Source: Streptomyces sp. DT2A-34 (GTDB lineage Bacteria; Actinomycetota; Actinomycetes; Streptomycetales; Streptomycetaceae). Taken from it: a DNA stretch of 64,000 nt. The position numbers and the translations under genes were made by a program. The notes under the pieces were generated by a model. The model saw only the letters and a program-made list of their open reading frames with translations, did not search any database and was not told the DNA's origin. Below, piece by piece: positions 945 through 21,680 of this stretch (its first letter is position 1; the number at the start of each line of letters is the position of its first letter). The stretch spans positions 3,204,001-3,268,000 of the forward strand of contig NZ_JASTWJ010000001.1 in NCBI RefSeq assembly GCF_030499515.1, given 5' to 3'.

Positions 945-3055
<2,111 letters not shown>

Positions 3056-3084
<29 letters not shown>

Positions 3085-3256
3085 GGGCGTGCGCTGGTAT
3101 GTGCGGGAGCTGACCGACGAGTCGGCGTACGACCGCTATGTCGCGCACATCCGCCGGGACCACCCGCAGGCGGACGCGCCCTCACGGCGGACGTTCGAGC
3201 GCATGCGCACCGACCGTCAGGAGCAGGACCCCCGGCAGGGCTTCCGCTGCTGCTGA
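3056..3256 (+). CDS. YbdD/YjiX-family CstA partner (DUF466)
   Basis: A 66-residue basic protein beginning MTSALRRALRGVRWYV and ending in the conserved FRCC. This is the family signature of the small YbdD/YjiX proteins encoded just after cstA-type transporters, which are needed with the transporter for pyruvate uptake in Enterobacteria. The ATG lies inside the end of cstA (29-base overlap), implying translational coupling. The gene is intact even though cstA upstream is frameshifted, so its translation may suffer if coupling is lost. Confidence 0.85.
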
Positions 3257-3376
3257 GCGGCAAGCGCTATCAGTTGAGTGCTATCCGTTATACGGACGGG
3301 GGTTCCATAAAGCGGAACCGTCGCCTAGATTTCCTGCGCATTGCACAGGTGATCAGTGAGGGGACGGAGCCGTCGT

Positions 3377-3628
3377 ATGTCTGATGCGCCAGAAGTGAGA
3401 CCACCGGTGGTGACACCCGTGCGCGTGGTCATCGCCCTCTGCCTGATCGCGCCGTTCGTGGCGATGCTGTGGGTCGGCTCGTACGCGAAGGTGGACCCGG
3501 CCTTCGCCGGCATCCCGTTCTTCTACTGGTACCAGATGCTGTGGGTGCTGATCTCCACCGCACTGACGATGATCGCGTACAAGCTGTGGCAGCGTGACCA
3601 GCGTGCACGCCGTGGGGGTGCCGAGTGA
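3377..3628 (+). CDS. DUF3311 small membrane protein, symporter partner
   Basis: An 83-residue protein with two predicted membrane helices (about residues 17-37 and 49-68) separated by a loop containing FFYWYQ. DUF3311 proteins are typically encoded immediately before a sodium:solute symporter, as here, and probably act as its accessory subunit. I chose the ATG at 3377 (MSDAPEV) rather than the start 21 bases upstream, because a GGGGACGGAG ribosome-binding site precedes it. The stop overlaps the symporter start by four bases (GTGA), so the two are translationally coupled. Confidence 0.8.
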   Translation: MSDAPEVRPPVVTPVRVVIALCLIAPFVAMLWVGSYAKVDPAFAGIPFFYWYQMLWVLISTALTMIAYKLWQRDQRARRGGAE

Positions 3629-5235
3629 ACGACGGCGTGAACGGCGTCGCACTCGCCGTCTTCATCATCTTCTTCCTGGCCGTCACGGTCATGGGCTTCC
3701 TGGCCTCGCGCTGGCGCAAGGCCGAGAACGAGCACAGCCTCGACGAATGGGGCCTGGGCGGCCGGTCGTTCGGCACCTGGGTGACCTGGTTCCTGCTCGG
3801 CGGCGACCTGTACACGGCGTACACCTTCGTGGCGGTCCCGGCGGCGATCTACGCGGCCGGCGCGGCGGGCTTCTTCGCGGTGCCGTACACGATCCTGGTG
3901 TACCCGCTGATCTTCACCTTCCTGCCCCGCCTCTGGTCGGTCTCGCACAAGCACGGATACGTCACGACCTCGGACTTCGTGCGCGGCCGCTTCGGCTCGA
4001 AGAGCCTGTCGCTGGCCGTGGCCGTCACCGGCCTGCTGGCGACCATGCCGTACATCGCGCTCCAGCTGGTCGGCATCCAGGCGGTGCTGGACGTGATGGG
4101 CGTGGGCGGCGGCGAGAACACCAACTGGTTCGTGAAGGACCTCCCCCTCCTCATCGCCTTCGGTGTGCTGGCGGCGTACACCTACTCCTCGGGTCTGCGC
4201 GCCCCGGCGCTGATCGCGTTCGTGAAGGACACGCTGATCTACGTCGTCATCGCGGTGGCGATCATCTACATCCCGATCAAGCTGGGCGGGTTCGACGAGA
4301 TCTTCGGCGCGGCGAGCGAGAAGTACACGGCAGCCAAGGCCGGCGGTCTGATCCCGCCGGAGGCGGGCCAGTGGACGTACGCCACGCTGGCGTTGGGCTC
4401 CGCGCTCGCGCTGTTCATGTACCCGCACTCGATCACCGCGACGCTCTCCTCCAGGAGCCGTGAGGTGATCCGCCGCAACACCACGATCCTGCCGCTGTAC
4501 TCCCTCATGCTCGGCCTGCTGGCCCTGCTGGGCTTCATGGCGATCGCGGCCGGAGTCTCGGTCACCAACCCCCAGCTGGCGATCCCGCAGCTCTTCGAGG
4601 ACATGTTCCCGTCCTGGTTCGCGGGCGTGGCCTTCGCGGCGATCGGCATCGGCGCCCTCGTCCCCGCGGCCATCATGTCCATCGCGGCCGCGAACCTCTT
4701 CACCCGCAACATCTACAAGGACTTCATCAAGCCGGACGCCACTCCCGCGCAGGAGACCAAGGTCTCCAAGCTGGTGTCCCTGCTGGTGAAGGTTGGTGCA
4801 CTGGTCTTCGTCCTGACGATGGACAAGACGGTCGCGATCAACTTCCAGCTCCTGGGCGGCATCTGGATCCTGCAGACCTTCCCGGCCCTGGTCGGCGGCC
4901 TGTTCACCCGCTGGTTCCACCGCTGGGCCCTGCTGGCCGGCTGGGCGGTCGGCATGATCTACGGCACGGTCGCCGCGTACGGCGTCGCCTCGCCGACGCA
5001 GAAGCACTTCGGCGGCTCGGCGAAGGAGATCCCCGGCATCGGGGAGATCGGCTACATCGGCCTGACGGCGTTCGTGCTGAACGTGGTGGTGACGGTCGTC
5101 CTCACCTTCGTCCTGAAGGCGGCGAAGGCCCCGGAGGGCATCGACGAGACCAGCCCGGAGGACTACACGGCGGACGCGGGCGACCCGGGCGTGAAGGTGG
5201 AACTGCCGCCTGCGACCGCGGGCACGTCCCACTGA
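3625..5235 (+). CDS. Sodium:solute symporter (monocarboxylate permease-like)
   Basis: A 536-residue SSS-family transporter with about 13 hydrophobic helices. Recognisable family features are GGRSFGTWVTWFLLGGDLYTAY near the N-terminus (given here as positions about 36-57) and the helix with ALFMYPHSITATLSSRS in the middle. With the DUF3311 partner it resembles the MctP-type uptake systems for lactate, pyruvate or acetate; the substrate is inferred from the family, not from a diagnostic residue. The GTG start overlaps the DUF3311 stop. A strong hairpin terminator follows at 5250. The C-terminal tail of about 40 residues is hydrophilic and cytosolic. Confidence 0.85.
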   Translation: MNDGVNGVALAVFIIFFLAVTVMGFLASRWRKAENEHSLDEWGLGGRSFGTWVTWFLLGGDLYTAYTFVAVPAAIYAAGAAGFFAVPYTILVYPLIFTFLPRLWSVSHKHGYVTTSDFVRGRFGSKSLSLAVAVTGLLATMPYIALQLVGIQAVLDVMGVGGGENTNWFVKDLPLLIAFGVLAAYTYSSGLRAPALIAFVKDTLIYVVIAVAIIYIPIKLGGFDEIFGAASEKYTAAKAGGLIPPEAGQWTYATLALGSALALFMYPHSITATLSSRSREVIRRNTTILPLYSLMLGLLALLGFMAIAAGVSVTNPQLAIPQLFEDMFPSWFAGVAFAAIGIGALVPAAIMSIAAANLFTRNIYKDFIKPDATPAQETKVSKLVSLLVKVGALVFVLTMDKTVAINFQLLGGIWILQTFPALVGGLFTRWFHRWALLAGWAVGMIYGTVAAYGVASPTQKHFGGSAKEIPGIGEIGYIGLTAFVLNVVVTVVLTFVLKAAKAPEGIDETSPEDYTADAGDPGVKVELPPATAGTSH

Positions 5236-6129: not shown

Positions 6130-8517
6130 GTGACCATCGCGCCAGCAGAACCGGCCTCAGCCGTCCCGACCGTCCCGACGGACGAGGACGCTCCGGGAAC
6201 CGCCTTGTTGCGGACCCTGACCGAGCTGACCGCCGACCTCCCCGACGCCGACCCCGGCCGGGTCGCCGCCGCCGCGTTGCGCGGCCGGTCCGCCGTCGCG
6301 GACGAAGCGGAGCTGCGCGAGCTGGCCACCGAGGCGGCGGCCGGTCTCATCTCCGAGGACCCCGCCTACAGCAGACTGGCCGCCCGGCTGCTGACCATCT
6401 CCATCGCCGCCGAGGCCGCCTCGCAGGGCGTCACGTCCTTCACCGAGTCGGTGGCCGTCGGGCATCGCGAGGGGCTCATCGCCGACCGGACCGCCGAGTT
6501 CGTGCGCCTGCACGCCGCCCGCCTCGACGACCTGATCGACACCGGTGCCGACGACCGCTTCGGCTACTTCGGCCTGCGCACCCTGCACAGCCGGTACCTG
6601 CTCCGGCATCCCCTCACCCGCAAGGTCATCGAGACGCCCCAGCACTTCATGCTGCGCGTCGCCGCCGGTCTCGCCGAGGACGACACGATGAGGTCCGTAG
6701 ACGAAGTCGCCGCGCTCTACGGGCTCATGAGCCGCCTCGACTACCTCCCCTCCTCCCCCACGCTCTTCAACTCCGGCACCCGCCACCCCCAGATGTCGTC
6801 CTGCTATCTCCTCGACTCCCCGAAGGACGAGCTGGACTCCATCTACGACCGCTACCACCAGGTCGCCCGCCTCTCCAAGCACGCCGGCGGCATCGGTCTG
6901 TCGTACTCCCGTATCCGCAGCCGCGGTTCGCTGATCCGCGGCACCAACGGGCACTCCAACGGCATCGTCCCGTTCCTGAAGACGCTCGACGCCTCGGTCG
7001 CCGCCGTGAACCAGGGCGGCCGGCGCAAGGGTGCCGCCGCGGTCTACCTGGAGACCTGGCACTCCGACATCGAGGAGTTCCTGGAGCTGCGCGACAACAC
7101 CGGTGAGGACGCCCGCCGTACGCACAACCTCAACCTCGCGCACTGGGTCCCGGACGAGTTCATGCGCCGCGTGAACGCCGACGGCCTGTGGTCCCTGTTC
7201 TCCCCCGCCGACGTGCCCGAGCTGGTCGACCTGTGGGGCGAGGAGTTCGACGCCGCCTACCGCGAGGCCGAGGAGGCGGGCCTCGCGAAGAAGACCATCC
7301 CGGCCCGTGACCTGTACGGCCGCATGATGCGCACCCTCGCGCAGACCGGCAACGGCTGGATGACCTTCAAGGACGCCGCCAACCGCACCGCCAACCAGAC
7401 CGCCCTGCCGGGCCATGTCGTCCACTCCTCCAACCTCTGCACGGAGATCCTGGAGGTCACGGACGACGGGGAGACGGCGGTCTGCAACCTGGGGTCGGTC
7501 AACCTCGGCGCGTTCGTCGACACGACGACCGGCGACATCGACTGGGAGCGGCTCGACGCCACCGTCCGTACCGCCGTCACCTTCCTCGACCGCGTCGTCG
7601 ACATCAACTTCTACCCGACCGAGCAGGCGGGGCGATCGAACGCCAAGTGGCGCCCGGTCGGGCTGGGCGCGATGGGGCTCCAGGACGTCTTCTTCAGGCT
7701 GCGGCTGCCCTTCGACTCGGCCGAGGCGAACCAGCTGTCCACGCGGATCGCCGAGCGCATCATGCTCGCCGCGTACGAGGCCTCCGCCGACCTCGCCGAG
7801 CGCAGCGGCCCGCTGCCGGCCTGGGAGAAGACCCGTACGGCCAAGGGGGTCCTGCACCCCGACCACTACGGCGTCGAGCTGACGTGGCCGGAGCGCTGGG
7901 CCGCGCTGCGGGACCGTATGGCCGCCACCGGTCTGCGCAACTCCCTCCTCCTCGCCATCGCACCCACCGCCACCATCGCGTCCATCGCCGGCGTCTACGA
8001 GTGCATCGAGCCGCAGGTCTCCAACCTGTTCAAGCGCGAGACGCTGTCCGGCGAGTTCCTCCAGGTCAACTCCTACCTGGTCAACGACCTCAAGGAGCTG
8101 GGCGTCTGGGACGCCCGCACCCGTGAGGCGCTGCGCGAGTCGAACGGCTCGGTGCAGGACTTCGCCTGGATCCCGGCGGACGTACGGGCCCTGTACCGCA
8201 CGGCGTGGGAGATCCCGCAGCGCGGGCTCATCGACATGGCCGCCGCCCGCACCCCGTTCCTCGACCAGTCCCAGTCCCTGAACCTCTTCCTGGAGACGCC
8301 GACCATCGGCAAGCTCTCCTCGATGTACGCCTACGCCTGGAAGCAGGGCCTGAAGACGACGTACTACCTGCGCTCGCGCCCGGCGACCCGCATCGCCCGC
8401 GCCGCACAGGCTCAGGCCGCCCAGCCCGAGAAGACCATCCCCGTCCAGCAGGTCGCCGAGCCCGACGCCGTCGCCTGCTCCCTGGAAAACCCCGAGTCCT
8501 GCGAGGCCTGCCAGTAA
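6130..8517 (+). CDS. nrdA: Class Ia ribonucleotide reductase, large subunit
   Basis: A 795-residue alpha subunit that reduces ribonucleoside diphosphates. Active-site residues are in place: Cys225 and Cys452 (the reducible pair), Cys437 in NLCTEI (thiyl radical site), Glu439, and Tyr745-Tyr746 in the radical-transfer path. The C-terminal tail carries the redox pair CEAC (791-794). The N-terminal 100 residues are Ala-rich and I do not see a clear ATP-cone motif there. I chose GTG 6130 because it follows GAGGGAGAGCC and the riboswitch leader; the open frame extends upstream only through the RNA aptamer. nrdB follows with a one-base overlap (TAATG). Confidence 0.95.
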   Translation: MTIAPAEPASAVPTVPTDEDAPGTALLRTLTELTADLPDADPGRVAAAALRGRSAVADEAELRELATEAAAGLISEDPAYSRLAARLLTISIAAEAASQGVTSFTESVAVGHREGLIADRTAEFVRLHAARLDDLIDTGADDRFGYFGLRTLHSRYLLRHPLTRKVIETPQHFMLRVAAGLAEDDTMRSVDEVAALYGLMSRLDYLPSSPTLFNSGTRHPQMSSCYLLDSPKDELDSIYDRYHQVARLSKHAGGIGLSYSRIRSRGSLIRGTNGHSNGIVPFLKTLDASVAAVNQGGRRKGAAAVYLETWHSDIEEFLELRDNTGEDARRTHNLNLAHWVPDEFMRRVNADGLWSLFSPADVPELVDLWGEEFDAAYREAEEAGLAKKTIPARDLYGRMMRTLAQTGNGWMTFKDAANRTANQTALPGHVVHSSNLCTEILEVTDDGETAVCNLGSVNLGAFVDTTTGDIDWERLDATVRTAVTFLDRVVDINFYPTEQAGRSNAKWRPVGLGAMGLQDVFFRLRLPFDSAEANQLSTRIAERIMLAAYEASADLAERSGPLPAWEKTRTAKGVLHPDHYGVELTWPERWAALRDRMAATGLRNSLLLAIAPTATIASIAGVYECIEPQVSNLFKRETLSGEFLQVNSYLVNDLKELGVWDARTREALRESNGSVQDFAWIPADVRALYRTAWEIPQRGLIDMAAARTPFLDQSQSLNLFLETPTIGKLSSMYAYAWKQGLKTTYYLRSRPATRIARAAQAQAAQPEKTIPVQQVAEPDAVACSLENPESCEACQ

Positions 8518-17336: not shown

Positions 17337-17975
17337 TTACCCGAGTGACCCGACCCACTTGACCACCGCGTCCGTGATGACCGCCACGGCCTCGTCCTGA
17401 TCGAGGGGCGCCCGCTTGGGTACGGCGAACCCGTGATCGCCGTACGGCACCTCGACCAGCTCGAAGTCGCCGTCCGGGAACTCCTCCGGCTTCCCGAACG
17501 GATCGTTCCCGCCCTGGACGACGAGGGTGGGCACCCCGGCCCCGAGCAGCTCGTCGGCGCGGGACTTCTCGGGCTTGCCCGGCGGGTGGAGGGGGAAGCC
17601 GAGGGCGAGTACGGCGTGGGCGCCGAGTTCGACGGCCGTACGGCAGGCGACCCGGGCCCCGGCGCTGCGCCCTCCGGAGATCACGGGCAGACCGGGCTGG
17701 GCGAGCGCGGGCCAGATGCCGCGCCAGCCGACGTCGAGGGTCTTCGGGGCGGGTGCCACCTTCTTGCCGGCCACGCGCCAGGGCTGCTCCACGAGGGCGA
17801 CGGTCACTCCGTGCCCGGGCAGGACCTCGGCCAGCGCCCGCAGGTCCCTGGCCTCGATGCCACCGCCGGCACCGTGGCTCACCGCCAGCACGAGCCGGGG
17901 CTGCTTCGCCGGGTGCCAGGTGATGCGGGCGTCCCCCGCGTCCGTGCCAACGATCTCGGTCGTCACATCAGTCAC
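17337..17975 (-). CDS. Alpha/beta-hydrolase family protein
   Basis: A 212-residue small alpha/beta hydrolase of the dienelactone-hydrolase/KANL3-like group. Visible parts are the oxyanion-side SHGAGGG (about 33-39), the nucleophile elbow GGRSAGAR (about 99-106), the acid-loop region QGGNDPFG (about 153-160) and the catalytic His in YGDHGF. The substrate is unknown. Its stop codon abuts the sigR promoter. A degenerate copy of its first codons exists at 20804-20830, at the far end of the inserted cassette (see findings). Confidence 0.8.
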   Translation of the reverse strand: MTDVTTEIVGTDAGDARITWHPAKQPRLVLAVSHGAGGGIEARDLRALAEVLPGHGVTVALVEQPWRVAGKKVAPAPKTLDVGWRGIWPALAQPGLPVISGGRSAGARVACRTAVELGAHAVLALGFPLHPPGKPEKSRADELLGAGVPTLVVQGGNDPFGKPEEFPDGDFELVEVPYGDHGFAVPKRAPLDQDEAVAVITDAVVKWVGSLG

Positions 17976-17991
17976 ATCAGAAGAGTGTGCC
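17928..17991. repeat. Left copy of cassette-flanking direct repeat
   Basis: This segment covers the first codons of the hydrolase gene, its upstream region and TCAGAAGAGTGTGCC. It aligns with 20804-20855: GGCGTC-CCCGCGTCC, TGCC, GATCTCGGTCG and TCAGAAGAGTGTGCC are shared in the same order and direction. The left copy has about 12 extra bases before the last block. Confidence 0.75.
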
Positions 17992-18097
17992 TTCTCCGAC
18001 GCAGGGTGTCCGACTGTGTGACGAGGCTGTCACTCCCCCGGCGGGAGGGAGGGCGCCCTTCCTTCGCGACCGGGGCGGCGTCGACGAGGGGGATCCA

Positions 18098-19143
18098 TTG
18101 ACCAGGACGACTGCGCTGGAGCACGACTCATGCGGAACCCCGTGCAGACCTCGCCACACTCACCCTCGACCCGGGCGACACCGCCCGCCTCGAAGGGCTG
18201 CTCCACGTCGCGGCGCGGCTGACGGGCCCCCTGGAACAGGCTCTCCGGACCGAGGCGTTCGCCGTGCTCGCCGAGCGCCTGCCGGCCCGGCTGCGCGAGG
18301 GCATCGAGTCCTTCCGTGACACGCCGCCGGACCAAGGTCTGCTCGTGGTGCGCGGACTGCCCGTCGGCGACATCCCGCTGACTCCGGCGACGTACGGTTC
18401 CAACGTCCTCGGCGAGACGCACCCCTCCAGCCTGCTCGTGGCCCTGGGGGCGCACCCGCTGGGCGGGTTGATCGGCTACGAGGACGAGAAGTCCGGGGCG
18501 CTCGTGCACGACGTGTACCCGGTCCCCACCGACGCGGCGAAACCCCTGAACTCCGGCTCCACGCTCTTCGACTTCCACACCGAGAACGTCCACCACCCGG
18601 TGCGGCCCTCGCACTTGGGCCTGCTGTGCCTGCGCCCCGACCACGACCGGCGGGCGGCCACCATGGTCGCCTCAGTCCGCGAGGCCGAGCCGCTGCTCTC
18701 GGCCGGCGACCGTGAGCTGCCGCGCACCGACCGCTACCGCAGCCGCTTCCCGCTCTCCTTCACCCGGGGTCTCGCCGAGGACGAACGGCCGGTGACCGAG
18801 CCGCACCCGGTGCTCACGGACGGCCCGGCCGGCGCCCCCGGGACGAGGGTCCGGTTCAACATGCACAACACCTTCGGGCACGGACCCCGAGGCGCAGGCG
18901 GCCCTGGAACGCCTCAACCGTGCCATGCACACCGTGCACCGCGCGGTGCGGGCCGACCGGGGCGAACTGCTCCTGGTCGACAACCGGATCGTCGTGCACG
19001 GCCGCAGCGACTTCACGCCGCGCTACGACGGCGACGACCGCTGGCTGCGCCGGTTCTACCCGTACCCCGGCGAGCTGCCCGCCGACGTCCTGGTGCGGGC
19101 CGGGGGCCGCGTACTCAGCAAGGACAGCTACGCCCGTGCATGA
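18098..19143 (+). pseudogene. Clavaminate-synthase/AsnO-like Fe(II)/2OG oxygenase, frameshifted
   Basis: The encoded protein resembles the CAS/AsnO/VioC group of non-haem iron, 2-oxoglutarate-dependent oxygenases that hydroxylate free amino acids. The HxE metal motif is visible as FHTEN (about 18574-18588), with DNRIVVHGRSDF and a DRWLRRFYPY tail near the C-terminus carrying the distal His and the 2OG-binding Arg. The reading frame breaks twice: near 18105-18143, between a plausible TTG start at 18098 with a GAGGGGG site and the main frame, and near 18876, where a GGG run holds one extra G. After the second break the correct frame continues to the stop at 19143. It overlaps the TauE/SafE gene by eight bases. 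Either a pseudogene or sequence error. Confidence 0.7.
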
Positions 19144-19906
19144 CCTGACCCTCACCGCGGCGGTGCTGCTCTGTGTCACCGCCGCGCTCGCGGGCTGGGT
19201 GGACGCGGTGGTCGGCGGCGGGCTCCTCCAGGTACCCGCCCTGCTGATCGCCTTCCCGCACCTGGCCCCGGCGTACGCCCTCGGCACCAACAAGGCCGTC
19301 GGCGTCGTCGGCACGTCGGCGGCGGCGGTGACGTACGCCCGCCGAGCCGCGATCGACGTGCGGCTCGCGGCCGGGCTCGGCTCTGTCGCGGCCCTGGCGG
19401 CGGTGGCCGGGGCGTTCTTCGCGGCCGGCGTGAACAGCGAGGTTCTGCGCCCTGTGATCATGGTGCTGCTCGCGGTCGCCGCCTTCGTCGTCCTGAAGCC
19501 GCAGTTCGGGCAGCGGCCGGGCGGCGCCGTGACCCGGCAGCGGGTTCTGGCCGCCGTCGCGGTCGTCGGGGCGGGTATCGGCTTCTACGACGGCCTGCTC
19601 GGCCCCGGCACCGGGACTTTCCTGGTGATCGGCCTGGTCGCGGTCCTGTCGATGGACATGGTCATGGCATCGGCGACCGCGAAGGTCGTCAACGTCGGGA
19701 CCAACCTGGGCGCGCTCGCGATGTTCACGTACCAGGGAACAGTGCTGTGGGCGCTCGCTCCCTTCATGGCGCTGTTCAACCTCGCGGGCGCCTCGGTGGG
19801 AGCCCGCATGGCACTCAAGCGCGGCAGCGGTTTCGTACGGGCCGTGCTGCTCGTCGTCGTGACCGTGCTGGTCGGCAAGCTCGCACTCGACCAATGGGGG
19901 ACGTGA
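19136..19906 (+). CDS. TauE/SafE-family membrane permease
   Basis: A 256-residue protein with about eight hydrophobic helices. Two related halves carry the family signatures GWVDAVVGGGLLQVPALL (about 18-35) and GFYDGLLGPGTGTFL (about 146-160). TauE/SafE proteins export or import sulfite, sulfoacetate, sulfolactate and other small organic anions. The GTG start lies inside the end of the oxygenase gene, and the racemase follows one base after the stop, so the three genes are one transcription unit. It probably moves the product or substrate of these enzymes, but the molecule is not known. Confidence 0.8.
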   Translation: MHDLTLTAAVLLCVTAALAGWVDAVVGGGLLQVPALLIAFPHLAPAYALGTNKAVGVVGTSAAAVTYARRAAIDVRLAAGLGSVAALAAVAGAFFAAGVNSEVLRPVIMVLLAVAAFVVLKPQFGQRPGGAVTRQRVLAAVAVVGAGIGFYDGLLGPGTGTFLVIGLVAVLSMDMVMASATAKVVNVGTNLGALAMFTYQGTVLWALAPFMALFNLAGASVGARMALKRGSGFVRAVLLVVVTVLVGKLALDQWGT

Positions 19907-19907
19907 G

Positions 19908-20612
19908 ATGTCCATCGGAATCCTGGGCGGAATGGGCCCGTTGGCCACGGTCGACTTCTACCGGAAGGTCATCGACGCGACCCCCGCCGACATCGACCAG
20001 GACCATCTGCCGATCGTGGTCTGGGCCGACCCCACGGTCCCGGACCGCTCGGCGGCGCTGATCGGGCGCGGCCCCGACCCGACGCCGTGGCTCGTGCGCG
20101 GCGCCCACCGGCTCGAGGCCATGGGGGCACGGGTCATCGCGACGCCGTGCAACACCGCGCACGCGTTCCTCGACGAGGTACGGACCACTGTGCGGGCCCC
20201 GATGCTCGACATGATCGCGGAGACGGTTGCCGAGATCCGCCACCACCACCCGGACGTGGCGGCGGTCGGGCTCCTGGCCACGACCGGCACGGTCCGCGCC
20301 GGGCTCTGTCAGCGGGCCCTGGAGGCGGCGGGGCTGCGGGTCGTGGTGCCGGGCGAGCTCTCCCAGGGCGAGGCCGTCACGGGCGCCATCCGCCGGATCA
20401 AGGCGGGCGATCTCGGCCCGGCCCCGGTCTCCCTGATCGAGCGGGCGGCCGAGGAGCTGGCGGCCCGAGGGGCGGGCCTGCTGGTGGCGGGCTGCACCGA
20501 ACTGCCCCTCCTTCTCGGCGATCGCAACGCCGGCCTACCGGTGGTGGACCCCACGGCCGCACTGGCACGGGCGACGGTACGGGAGGCCCTGACGCCGGCC
20601 GGGGTCGTCTGA
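19908..20612 (+). CDS. Aspartate/glutamate racemase family protein
   Basis: A 234-residue cofactor-independent racemase. The two catalytic cysteines are in conserved settings: TPCNTAH (about Cys82) and AGCTELP (about Cys190); GILGGMGPLAT at the N-terminus is typical of the YgeA/aspartate-racemase branch rather than MurI. Substrates in this group include Asp, Glu, homoserine and hydantoins. The ATG follows the permease stop with one base between. Position beside an amino-acid-oxygenase-like gene suggests it may act on a modified amino acid. No strong terminator follows; 20613-20803 contains short GGCCGGTCCCTGA repeats. Confidence 0.8.
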   Translation: MSIGILGGMGPLATVDFYRKVIDATPADIDQDHLPIVVWADPTVPDRSAALIGRGPDPTPWLVRGAHRLEAMGARVIATPCNTAHAFLDEVRTTVRAPMLDMIAETVAEIRHHHPDVAAVGLLATTGTVRAGLCQRALEAAGLRVVVPGELSQGEAVTGAIRRIKAGDLGPAPVSLIERAAEELAARGAGLLVAGCTELPLLLGDRNAGLPVVDPTAALARATVREALTPAGVV

Positions 20613-20718
20613 TCGGCCCTGGTCCGGGCGGTCCGCGCGGTCCGCGCGGGGGCGGTCCGGGTGAGTTGGCGTGGCGGCACCGCTCGGTGTCGCCACGCCT
20701 CGTCGGCACGGGCCCTGG

Positions 20719-20768
20719 GCCGGTCCCTGAGGTGCTCGGCCGGTCCCTGAAACCCGGCCGGTCCCTGA
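20719..20768. repeat. Three short direct repeats (GCCGGTCCCTGA)
   Basis: The 12-base string GCCGGTCCCTGA occurs three times, at 20719, 20739 and 20757, with spacings of 20 and 18 bases, between the racemase stop and the right flanking repeat. A separate GCGGTCCGC tandem lies at 20628-20648. No gene is seen in 20613-20840. Confidence 0.6.
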
Positions 20769-20803
20769 GGCGCTCGGCGCATCTCCGCGTTCCCCGCGTC
20801 CCC

Positions 20804-20855
20804 GGCGTCTCCCGCGTCCATGCCGGTGATCTCGGTCGGGTCAGAAGAGTGTGCC
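20804..20855. repeat. Right copy of cassette-flanking direct repeat
   Basis: Imperfect copy of 17928-17991. On the minus strand it reads as the last codons of the YedK gene (GTLF stop), then a short spacer, then a stretch resembling the first codons of the hydrolase (Thr-Glu-Ile-x-Gly-x-Asp-Ala-Gly-Asp-Ala). In this copy the hydrolase-like frame is not continued. Confidence 0.75.
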
Positions 20856-21680
20856 CTCTTCGGGACCGTCCAGCTCCTTCAGCAGCTCCGGGCCGTTGTT
20901 GCGGACGTTGCTGACCAGCGTGGAGACCGGGTAGGCACGCATCCGTCCGGCGGGCGGCGGGGCGAGCAGCGTCCGCAGCTCCTCGGGGTCGGTGCGGGAC
21001 GGGTCGAGCCAGGCGTCCCAGCGGTCCGGTGTCAGCATCAGCGGCATGCGGGGGTGGATCTCGGCCAGCGAGGTCGGGCCCTCGGGCGGCGTCACCGCCA
21101 GCGGGGTCGTCTCCGCCTCCGTCGTGATGACCGAGCAGGTCACCCACCAGGCCTGCGGATGCTCGTCCGGCAGCGTCCGATCCCGCCAGAACTCGTACAG
21201 CCCCGCCATCGCGAACACCGACCCGTCGGCGGGCAGCACGAAGTACGGCTGCTTGCGCGGCCGTTTCCGCTTCCCCTCGACCTCCAGCTCCCGCTCCTGC
21301 GCGCCGGTGACCCACTCGTAGTAGCCGTCGGCGGGGATGATGCAGCGCCGGGAGCTGAAGGCCCGGCGGTACGACGGCTTCTCGTGCACCGTCTCCGCGC
21401 GCGCGTTGATCATCTTGAAGGCGCTCTCGGGGGTCTTGGACCAGCTGGGCACCAGCCCCCACTTGAGCTTCCGCAGCTGCCGAACCGGACGGCCCGTGAC
21501 GGAGGAACTGGTGGACGCAGCGGCGGCGTCCTTCAAGGGACGGTCGAGGATGACGTGGACCTCTTTGGTGGGTGCCACGTTGTAGTCCGGCTCCAGGGTC
21601 TCCTCGGGCTCCCACTTCTCGATCTCAAAGATTCCTGCGAGATCCTCGGGTCCACGACTAGCTGCATACCGTCCGCACAT
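20841..21680 (-). CDS. SRAP/HMCES-family protein (YedK)
   Basis: A 279-residue SOS-response-associated peptidase domain protein. The catalytic Cys2 directly after Met (MCGRY), Asn34 in NVAPT, the Glu in DGYYEW and the His in IHPRMPLML are all present. Homologues form a stable DNA-protein link with abasic sites in single-stranded DNA through Cys2, protecting them during replication. The start must be ATG 21680, because Cys2 has to become N-terminal; the longer open frame upstream is not used. It is divergent from the M50 gene. Confidence 0.9.
   Translation of the reverse strand: MCGRYAASRGPEDLAGIFEIEKWEPEETLEPDYNVAPTKEVHVILDRPLKDAAAASTSSSVTGRPVRQLRKLKWGLVPSWSKTPESAFKMINARAETVHEKPSYRRAFSSRRCIIPADGYYEWVTGAQERELEVEGKRKRPRKQPYFVLPADGSVFAMAGLYEFWRDRTLPDEHPQAWWVTCSVITTEAETTPLAVTPPEGPTSLAEIHPRMPLMLTPDRWDAWLDPSRTDPEELRTLLAPPPAGRMRAYPVSTLVSNVRNNGPELLKELDGPEEGTLF

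Follow-up and report, generated by a model that had tools for sequence, protein, structure and literature searches.

How does a cluster of metabolic genes that has no mobility gene come to stand between two neighboring genes of a Streptomyces chromosome, bounded by copies of the junction that it interrupts? The question is raised by a 64,000-nucleotide stretch of Streptomyces sp. DT2A-34 (contig NZ_JASTWJ010000001.1, positions 3,204,001 to 3,268,000; the whole stretch is called the window here), in which a cassette separates the genes for an alpha/beta hydrolase (PF20408; 17337..17975, minus strand) and a YedK/SRAP protein (PF02586; 20841..21686, minus strand). In the account we favor, with a probability of roughly 0.7, a cassette of ∼5.0 kb and five genes, carrying no mobility gene of its own, would have entered a Streptomyces chromosome between YedK and the hydrolase gene, duplicating junction sequence as it was joined. 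Homologous recombination in the flanks would later have carried the filled allele from one Streptomyces lineage to another, and the cassette in this genome would afterwards have decayed through a 2.4-kb deletion and a frameshift.

The repeat at the cassette edges was identified as a local alignment of score 48 between positions 17928 to 17998 and 20804 to 20862, a score reached by none of 2,000 first-order Markov shuffles and none of 2,949 random window pairs. The same-direction repeat that an earlier note had described from the letters alone (17928 to 17991 and 20804 to 20855) is therefore real and slightly longer. Its only gaps, of 8 and 4 nt separated by one base, lie at the TCACATCAG tandem of the left copy, and the repeat finder splits the repeat into two families there. 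The left copy (17928..17998) carries the true hydrolase start and a 22-nt remnant of the YedK tail (17977 to 17998, encoding EGTLF-stop), and the right copy (20804..20862) carries the true YedK 3′ end and a 35-nt remnant of hydrolase codons (20804 to 20838); neither copy is assigned a strand. This is the anatomy that the earlier note had proposed, with YedK 3′ end and hydrolase 5′ codons joined in each copy, a real hydrolase start and decayed YedK end on the left, and real YedK codons and a decayed hydrolase start on the right; both remnants proved significant against the empty sites of kin.

YedK relatives were present in 293 of 295 Streptomyces genomes (E value, ≤1e−40), and 69 YedK loci were examined besides the window (29 next-best matches and 40 picked from the listing). 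YedK and the hydrolase were adjacent and on the same strand in 68, with a spacer of −4 to 256 bp that varies among empty sites by short tandem units, and the 69th (L043) is itself a cassette carrier. Relatives thus show the single, uninterrupted site expected of insertion with target duplication, and in the window and in Streptomyces sp. HD (L070) each flank holds its own copy of that target. The cassette occupies this junction in two further genomes, S. caeruleatus (L068) and Bin2.31 (L069/L075), and in all four known junction carriers the YedK-tail remnant adjoins the hydrolase. These comparisons support entry of the cassette at the YedK-hydrolase junction with duplication of junction sequence, as the earlier note had suggested.

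Each junction copy was compared with five kin empty sites using 300 shuffles. The left copy was significant in the window and the three other junction carriers (0 to 3 of 300 shuffles). Measured back from the stop-codon end, its YedK tail spans 22 nt in the window and S. caeruleatus and 24 to 43 nt, gapped in part, in Bin2.31 and HD. The right copy was significant in the window (0 to 2 of 300) and HD (0 of 300), and in the window it ends 58 nt past the YedK stop against three kin, 67 nt against G220 and 88 nt against G049, kin that differ in the length of their own junctions. By comparison with kin empty sites the duplication comes to ∼80 to 110 bp rather than the ∼50 to 60 bp first estimated, and we read it as one duplication whose right copy has probably since eroded.

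Several further features of the right edge were observed. In the window, three near-identical CGGCCGGTCCCTGA-like units occupy 20715 to 20768, between the racemase gene of the cassette and the right copy. In the interval from the YedK stop codon to the end of the racemase gene, the right copies of Bin2.31 and HD are expanded into tandem arrays, with units of ∼15 bp (L069) and ∼18 bp (L070), respectively. In S. caeruleatus, another, altered copy of GGCACCCTC comes after the YedK end (L068, region 6770 to 6809), a pattern that resembles a re-joining of the right end.

Evidence that the filled allele moved between species came from trees, divergence at four-fold degenerate sites and the distribution of variable sites in the hydrolase gene. 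In the cassette tree (both trees are cited in unrooted form) the four junction cassettes were split from three others with ultrafast bootstrap (UFBoot) support of 98, and the window paired with S. caeruleatus and HD with Bin2.31, each at 100. The flank tree instead placed S. caeruleatus with the empty G220 (98) and the window with the empty G097, G104 and G252 (93). With flanks defined as hydrolase, YedK, M50 and aroA, leaving out sigR, the cassette was about half as diverged as the flanks between the window and S. caeruleatus (56/486 versus 176/740 sites; p = 4e−8). Contrasts were also found for window-HD (81/470 versus 163/731; p = 0.03) and S. caeruleatus-HD (163/943 versus 179/728; p = 3e−4), and none for the control pair HD-Bin2.31 (81/997 versus 34/516; p = 0.31). 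Adding sigR to the flanks left the window-S. caeruleatus contrast in place (199/903; p = 1e−6). Within the hydrolase gene (numbered from its second codon), all 9 sites at which the window and S. caeruleatus agree against their own kin fall at 73 to 156, and the 13 sites concordant with the host tree all fall at 183 to 609 (p = 1e−4). Because the discordant sites are so confined, the common tract would include the hydrolase start, or its first ∼156 to 186 bp, and end near codons 53 to 62. Junction cassettes that group where their hosts do not, a cassette half as diverged as its flanks and a tract end inside the hydrolase together argue that homologous recombination carried the insertion allele from one species to another, and they support passage of the allele between the lineages of this genome and S. 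caeruleatus, in either direction. Since the allele moved between species, the earlier argument that divergence between the two copies by itself marks an old event is not supported.

A number of observations weigh against this account. The right copy is weak in Bin2.31 (best result, 37 of 300 shuffles) and was not detected in S. caeruleatus against the five kin empty sites (25 to 103 of 300), so that the case for a single shared duplication draws mainly on the left copy. Of the remaining flank-tree nodes, two pairs have support of 100 and the rest are weak (36 to 85). When sigR was added, the window-HD contrast was lost (p = 0.25) and that for S. caeruleatus-HD became weaker (p = 0.013). Taken alone, sigR, which lies two genes out, was no more diverged than the cassette in window-S. 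caeruleatus (23/163; p = 0.41) and less diverged than the cassette in window-HD and S. caeruleatus-HD (p about 0.02). Transfer is for this reason well supported for the window and S. caeruleatus only. In YedK, 2 discordant and 16 concordant sites showed no clustering (p = 0.84) that would mark a right limit of the tract. The sequence also holds no diagnostic trace of the joining reaction, and the scattered carriers could be explained by one ancestral insertion and several losses, which would not account for the low window-S. caeruleatus divergence.

The hydrolase-side tract bears directly on a two-step origin, the alternative that survives best, although we consider it somewhat unlikely. Here the cassette would first have lain within a YedK 3′ end, and the filled allele would then have entered an empty recipient, either through homology-facilitated illegitimate recombination, with a homologous crossover on the hydrolase side and an illegitimate join within the start of the hydrolase gene, or through a single crossover of a circular form; the junction copies would come from different lineages and so would have differed from the start. 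A common tract with a homologous end in the hydrolase and none visible on the YedK side fits this scheme, as do integrations in E. coli, reported in PMC3240628, in which target sequence was duplicated instead of deleted. Two events are needed, however, and the junction copies, judged by eye, are too short and offer too few sites for each to be assigned to a donor or recipient lineage.

It is improbable that the cassette was inserted in a common ancestor and then lost repeatedly by recombination between the flanking copies, with no interspecies transfer. Direct repeats do make such losses possible, and the junction cassettes form one group, but the deficit of divergence relative to the immediate flanks in window-S. 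caeruleatus, its lack in the HD-Bin2.31 control and the sharp switch within the hydrolase are not expected from loss.

Insertion with junction duplication followed by homologous transfer is thus our preferred reading, and its joining step would be illegitimate recombination: the duplicated structure is seen at the cassette edges, and the reaction is suggested by it. Duplication of the junction on joining left both flanking genes intact. The simplest course would be that a staggered or resected break captured the fragment and was filled in by end joining, or that a circularized fragment entered by a single crossover; either of these, or a two-step homology-facilitated event, would be expected to leave the same anatomy. 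The end-joining genes of Streptomyces have been proposed, in PMC5124664, as possible modulators of DNA acquisition. Like the illegitimate and homology-facilitated illegitimate insertions treated in PMC3240628, in which target duplication is possible, the cassette is a nonhomologous block between conserved genes and lacks mobility genes; it differs in that 80 to 110 bp of junction were duplicated and the filled allele later moved homologously.

The cassette was also found at other sites. Scanning the genome collection with the racemase yielded seven loci, of which five (L068 to L072) were close, and searches of the genus added G117 and G333. The oxygenases of G333 and S. caeruleatus are 100% identical, so that the two genomes are probably of the same species; G001 and L069 are alike in content. 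Few genomes have the cassette oxygenase (4 of 392 at an E value of ≤1e−100, that of the window included); in public databases, ten oxygenase clusters were listed at ≥76% identity. In S. roseolilacinus (L071), SW4 (L072) and G117 the cassette lies elsewhere, with no YedK within the surrounding DNA examined, and the own YedK-hydrolase junction of G117 is empty. Homology between sites begins just before the regulator gene and stops at or shortly past the racemase stop.

Flanking repeats at the S. roseolilacinus and SW4 sites were not beyond chance (best score reached by 147 and 428 of 500 shuffles, respectively), and that of G117 was borderline (11 of 500) and not located at the join; within S. 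caeruleatus itself, 6 of 500 shuffles reached the best score. Both flanks of the G117 site were matched in 9 of 18 relatives with an overlap of ≤4 bp in all nine, so that the overlap expected from a long duplication was seen in none of them. The flanks meet with 4 bp of overlap in the closest relative (L093), in which ∼57 and 226 bp around the G117 unit are unmatched; 13 to 437 bp lie between the flanks in the other eight, showing that this intergenic stretch varies. At the S. roseolilacinus site the largest flank overlap among 30 relatives was 9 bp, and an empty site for SW4 was rejected because its left flank did not align. With 245 to 336 bp beside the S. roseolilacinus joins failing to align and no aligned left flank for SW4, these two are weaker tests of duplication. 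A similar duplication at each site, as expected of a self-mobile element, was not found at these three sites, of which only G117 offers a firm empty site; the long duplication seems to be a one-off of the YedK-hydrolase junction.

No transposase, integrase or relaxase was identified among the five open reading frames that fill the 5-kb unit; the neighboring kilobases were not scanned for mobility domains. Terminal inverted repeats were not seen, the best inverted scores in the seven carriers being 20 to 28 against a shuffle mean for direct scores of 23.5 to 27.7, with no separate inverted-repeat shuffles. Target-site duplications of transposons usually measure 2 to 14 bp. The cassette resembles a transposon with target-site duplication in being bounded by direct repeats; it differs in its longer repeat, the lack of a transposase and of visible inverted ends, and the long duplication undetected at three other sites. 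The earlier note was right that no transposase is present, at least within the five-gene unit, but the unusual mobile mechanism that it drew from this finds no support at the other sites. That the cassette is a new kind of mobile element making a long target duplication is highly improbable, since the duplication at the junction and the presence of the unit, sharply and reproducibly bounded, at four separate sites are set against chance-level or off-join flanking repeats, the short flank overlaps at the G117 and S. roseolilacinus sites, the unseen inverted repeats and a unit with no room for a transposase.

Plasmids were considered as a vehicle, and no plasmid record had one place covering at least 80% of the query (phage records were not searched); of the 82 plasmid records with a match, 20 were listed, and in 19 of these the match is confined to the BenE part. 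Related racemases were likewise rejected as parts of similar clusters. When 30 loci, with flanks of mostly 1.5 kb, were compared with the five cassette proteins, the only nonracemase match was the permease of L002, a locus that had been fetched by permease similarity. L002 (G000:C1:6972812-6973559) is a second TauE-type permease gene in this same genome, its protein 66% identical to that of the cassette.

In S. caeruleatus the cassette encodes a helix-turn-helix (HTH) regulator of the GerE/LuxR type, a BenE symporter, a TauD-domain oxygenase, a TauE permease and an Asp/Glu racemase, and these five genes take up the ∼5.0-kb unit. The oxygenase, permease and racemase that the earlier note had counted hold for the window only, where the oxygenase is broken. 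The left cassette end (17999..18124, plus strand) comprises the region upstream of the regulator and its first codons up to a deletion scar (18123..18124, no strand). There ∼2.4 kb are gone (L068 ∼1825 to 4210, with a 2-bp overlap), including most of the regulator, BenE and the oxygenase ATG. The TauD/clavaminate-synthase-like oxygenase pseudogene (18125..19143, plus strand) has also been shifted in frame by an extra G within 18876 to 18878. The TauE/SafE-family permease (19136..19906, plus strand) remains open, with two single-residue deletions relative to L068, as does the Asp/Glu-type racemase (19908..20612, plus strand). An assembly error behind the deletion and frameshift is possible. As the oxygenase is broken, the cassette would be at most partly active in this genome.

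A GTGAC-N6-GTCAC palindrome just upstream of the regulator (18018 to 18033) is a candidate operator; a GTGAC-N6/7-GTCAC palindrome lies at the same place in all seven carriers compared (window, L068 to L072 and L076). In SW4 the permease (L072 5224 to 5999) matches as two pieces in different frames, possibly a separate, second decay of the cassette.

The racemases of the window and L068 scored 267.6 and 275.5, respectively, against NCBIfam NF052483 (cysteate racemase CuyB; cut-off, 190), which suggests a link between the cassette and sulfonate metabolism. The best PDB match of the oxygenase, which carries the TauD Pfam domain, was AsnO (2og5; E value, 4.7e−44). Among the NCBIfam models listed, which do not include AsnO, the L068 oxygenase fell far below the cut-offs for Cs1 (197.4 against 450), GntD (180.2 against 345) and VioC (124 against 418.6). 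Within the clavaminate synthase/asparagine oxygenase family it is thus nearest AsnO, yet below these equivalog cut-offs. TauD itself hydroxylates the sulfonate-bearing carbon of taurine. Published descriptions of the cassette were not found in literature searches of titles and abstract openings. In the cysteate degradation described in PMC11382572, the lyase CuyA acts after CuyB, which interconverts the L and D forms of cysteate. The cassette shares with that system a racemase above the CuyB cut-off with a TauE/SafE-family permease beside it; it differs in lacking the CuyA lyase and in having a clavaminate-synthase-like oxygenase and a BenE-type symporter. It is doubtful whether the intact cassette encodes a not yet described oxygenolytic route that acts on cysteate or a similar sulfonated amino acid. 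In such a route the racemase would supply one enantiomer, the AsnO-like oxygenase would hydroxylate the sulfonate-bearing carbon and sulfite would fall off and be exported by the TauE/SafE-type permease; the BenE-type symporter would serve for import, and the HTH regulator would act as the sensor.

Gene transfer of the kind proposed here is ordinary; the detail in which it can be followed is unusual. The history offers a legible case in which a metabolic cluster without mobility genes would enter a core locus, spare both neighbors, spread as an allele and decay. The intact five-gene form of other Streptomyces, with its possible role in sulfonate metabolism, is compact and open to testing.

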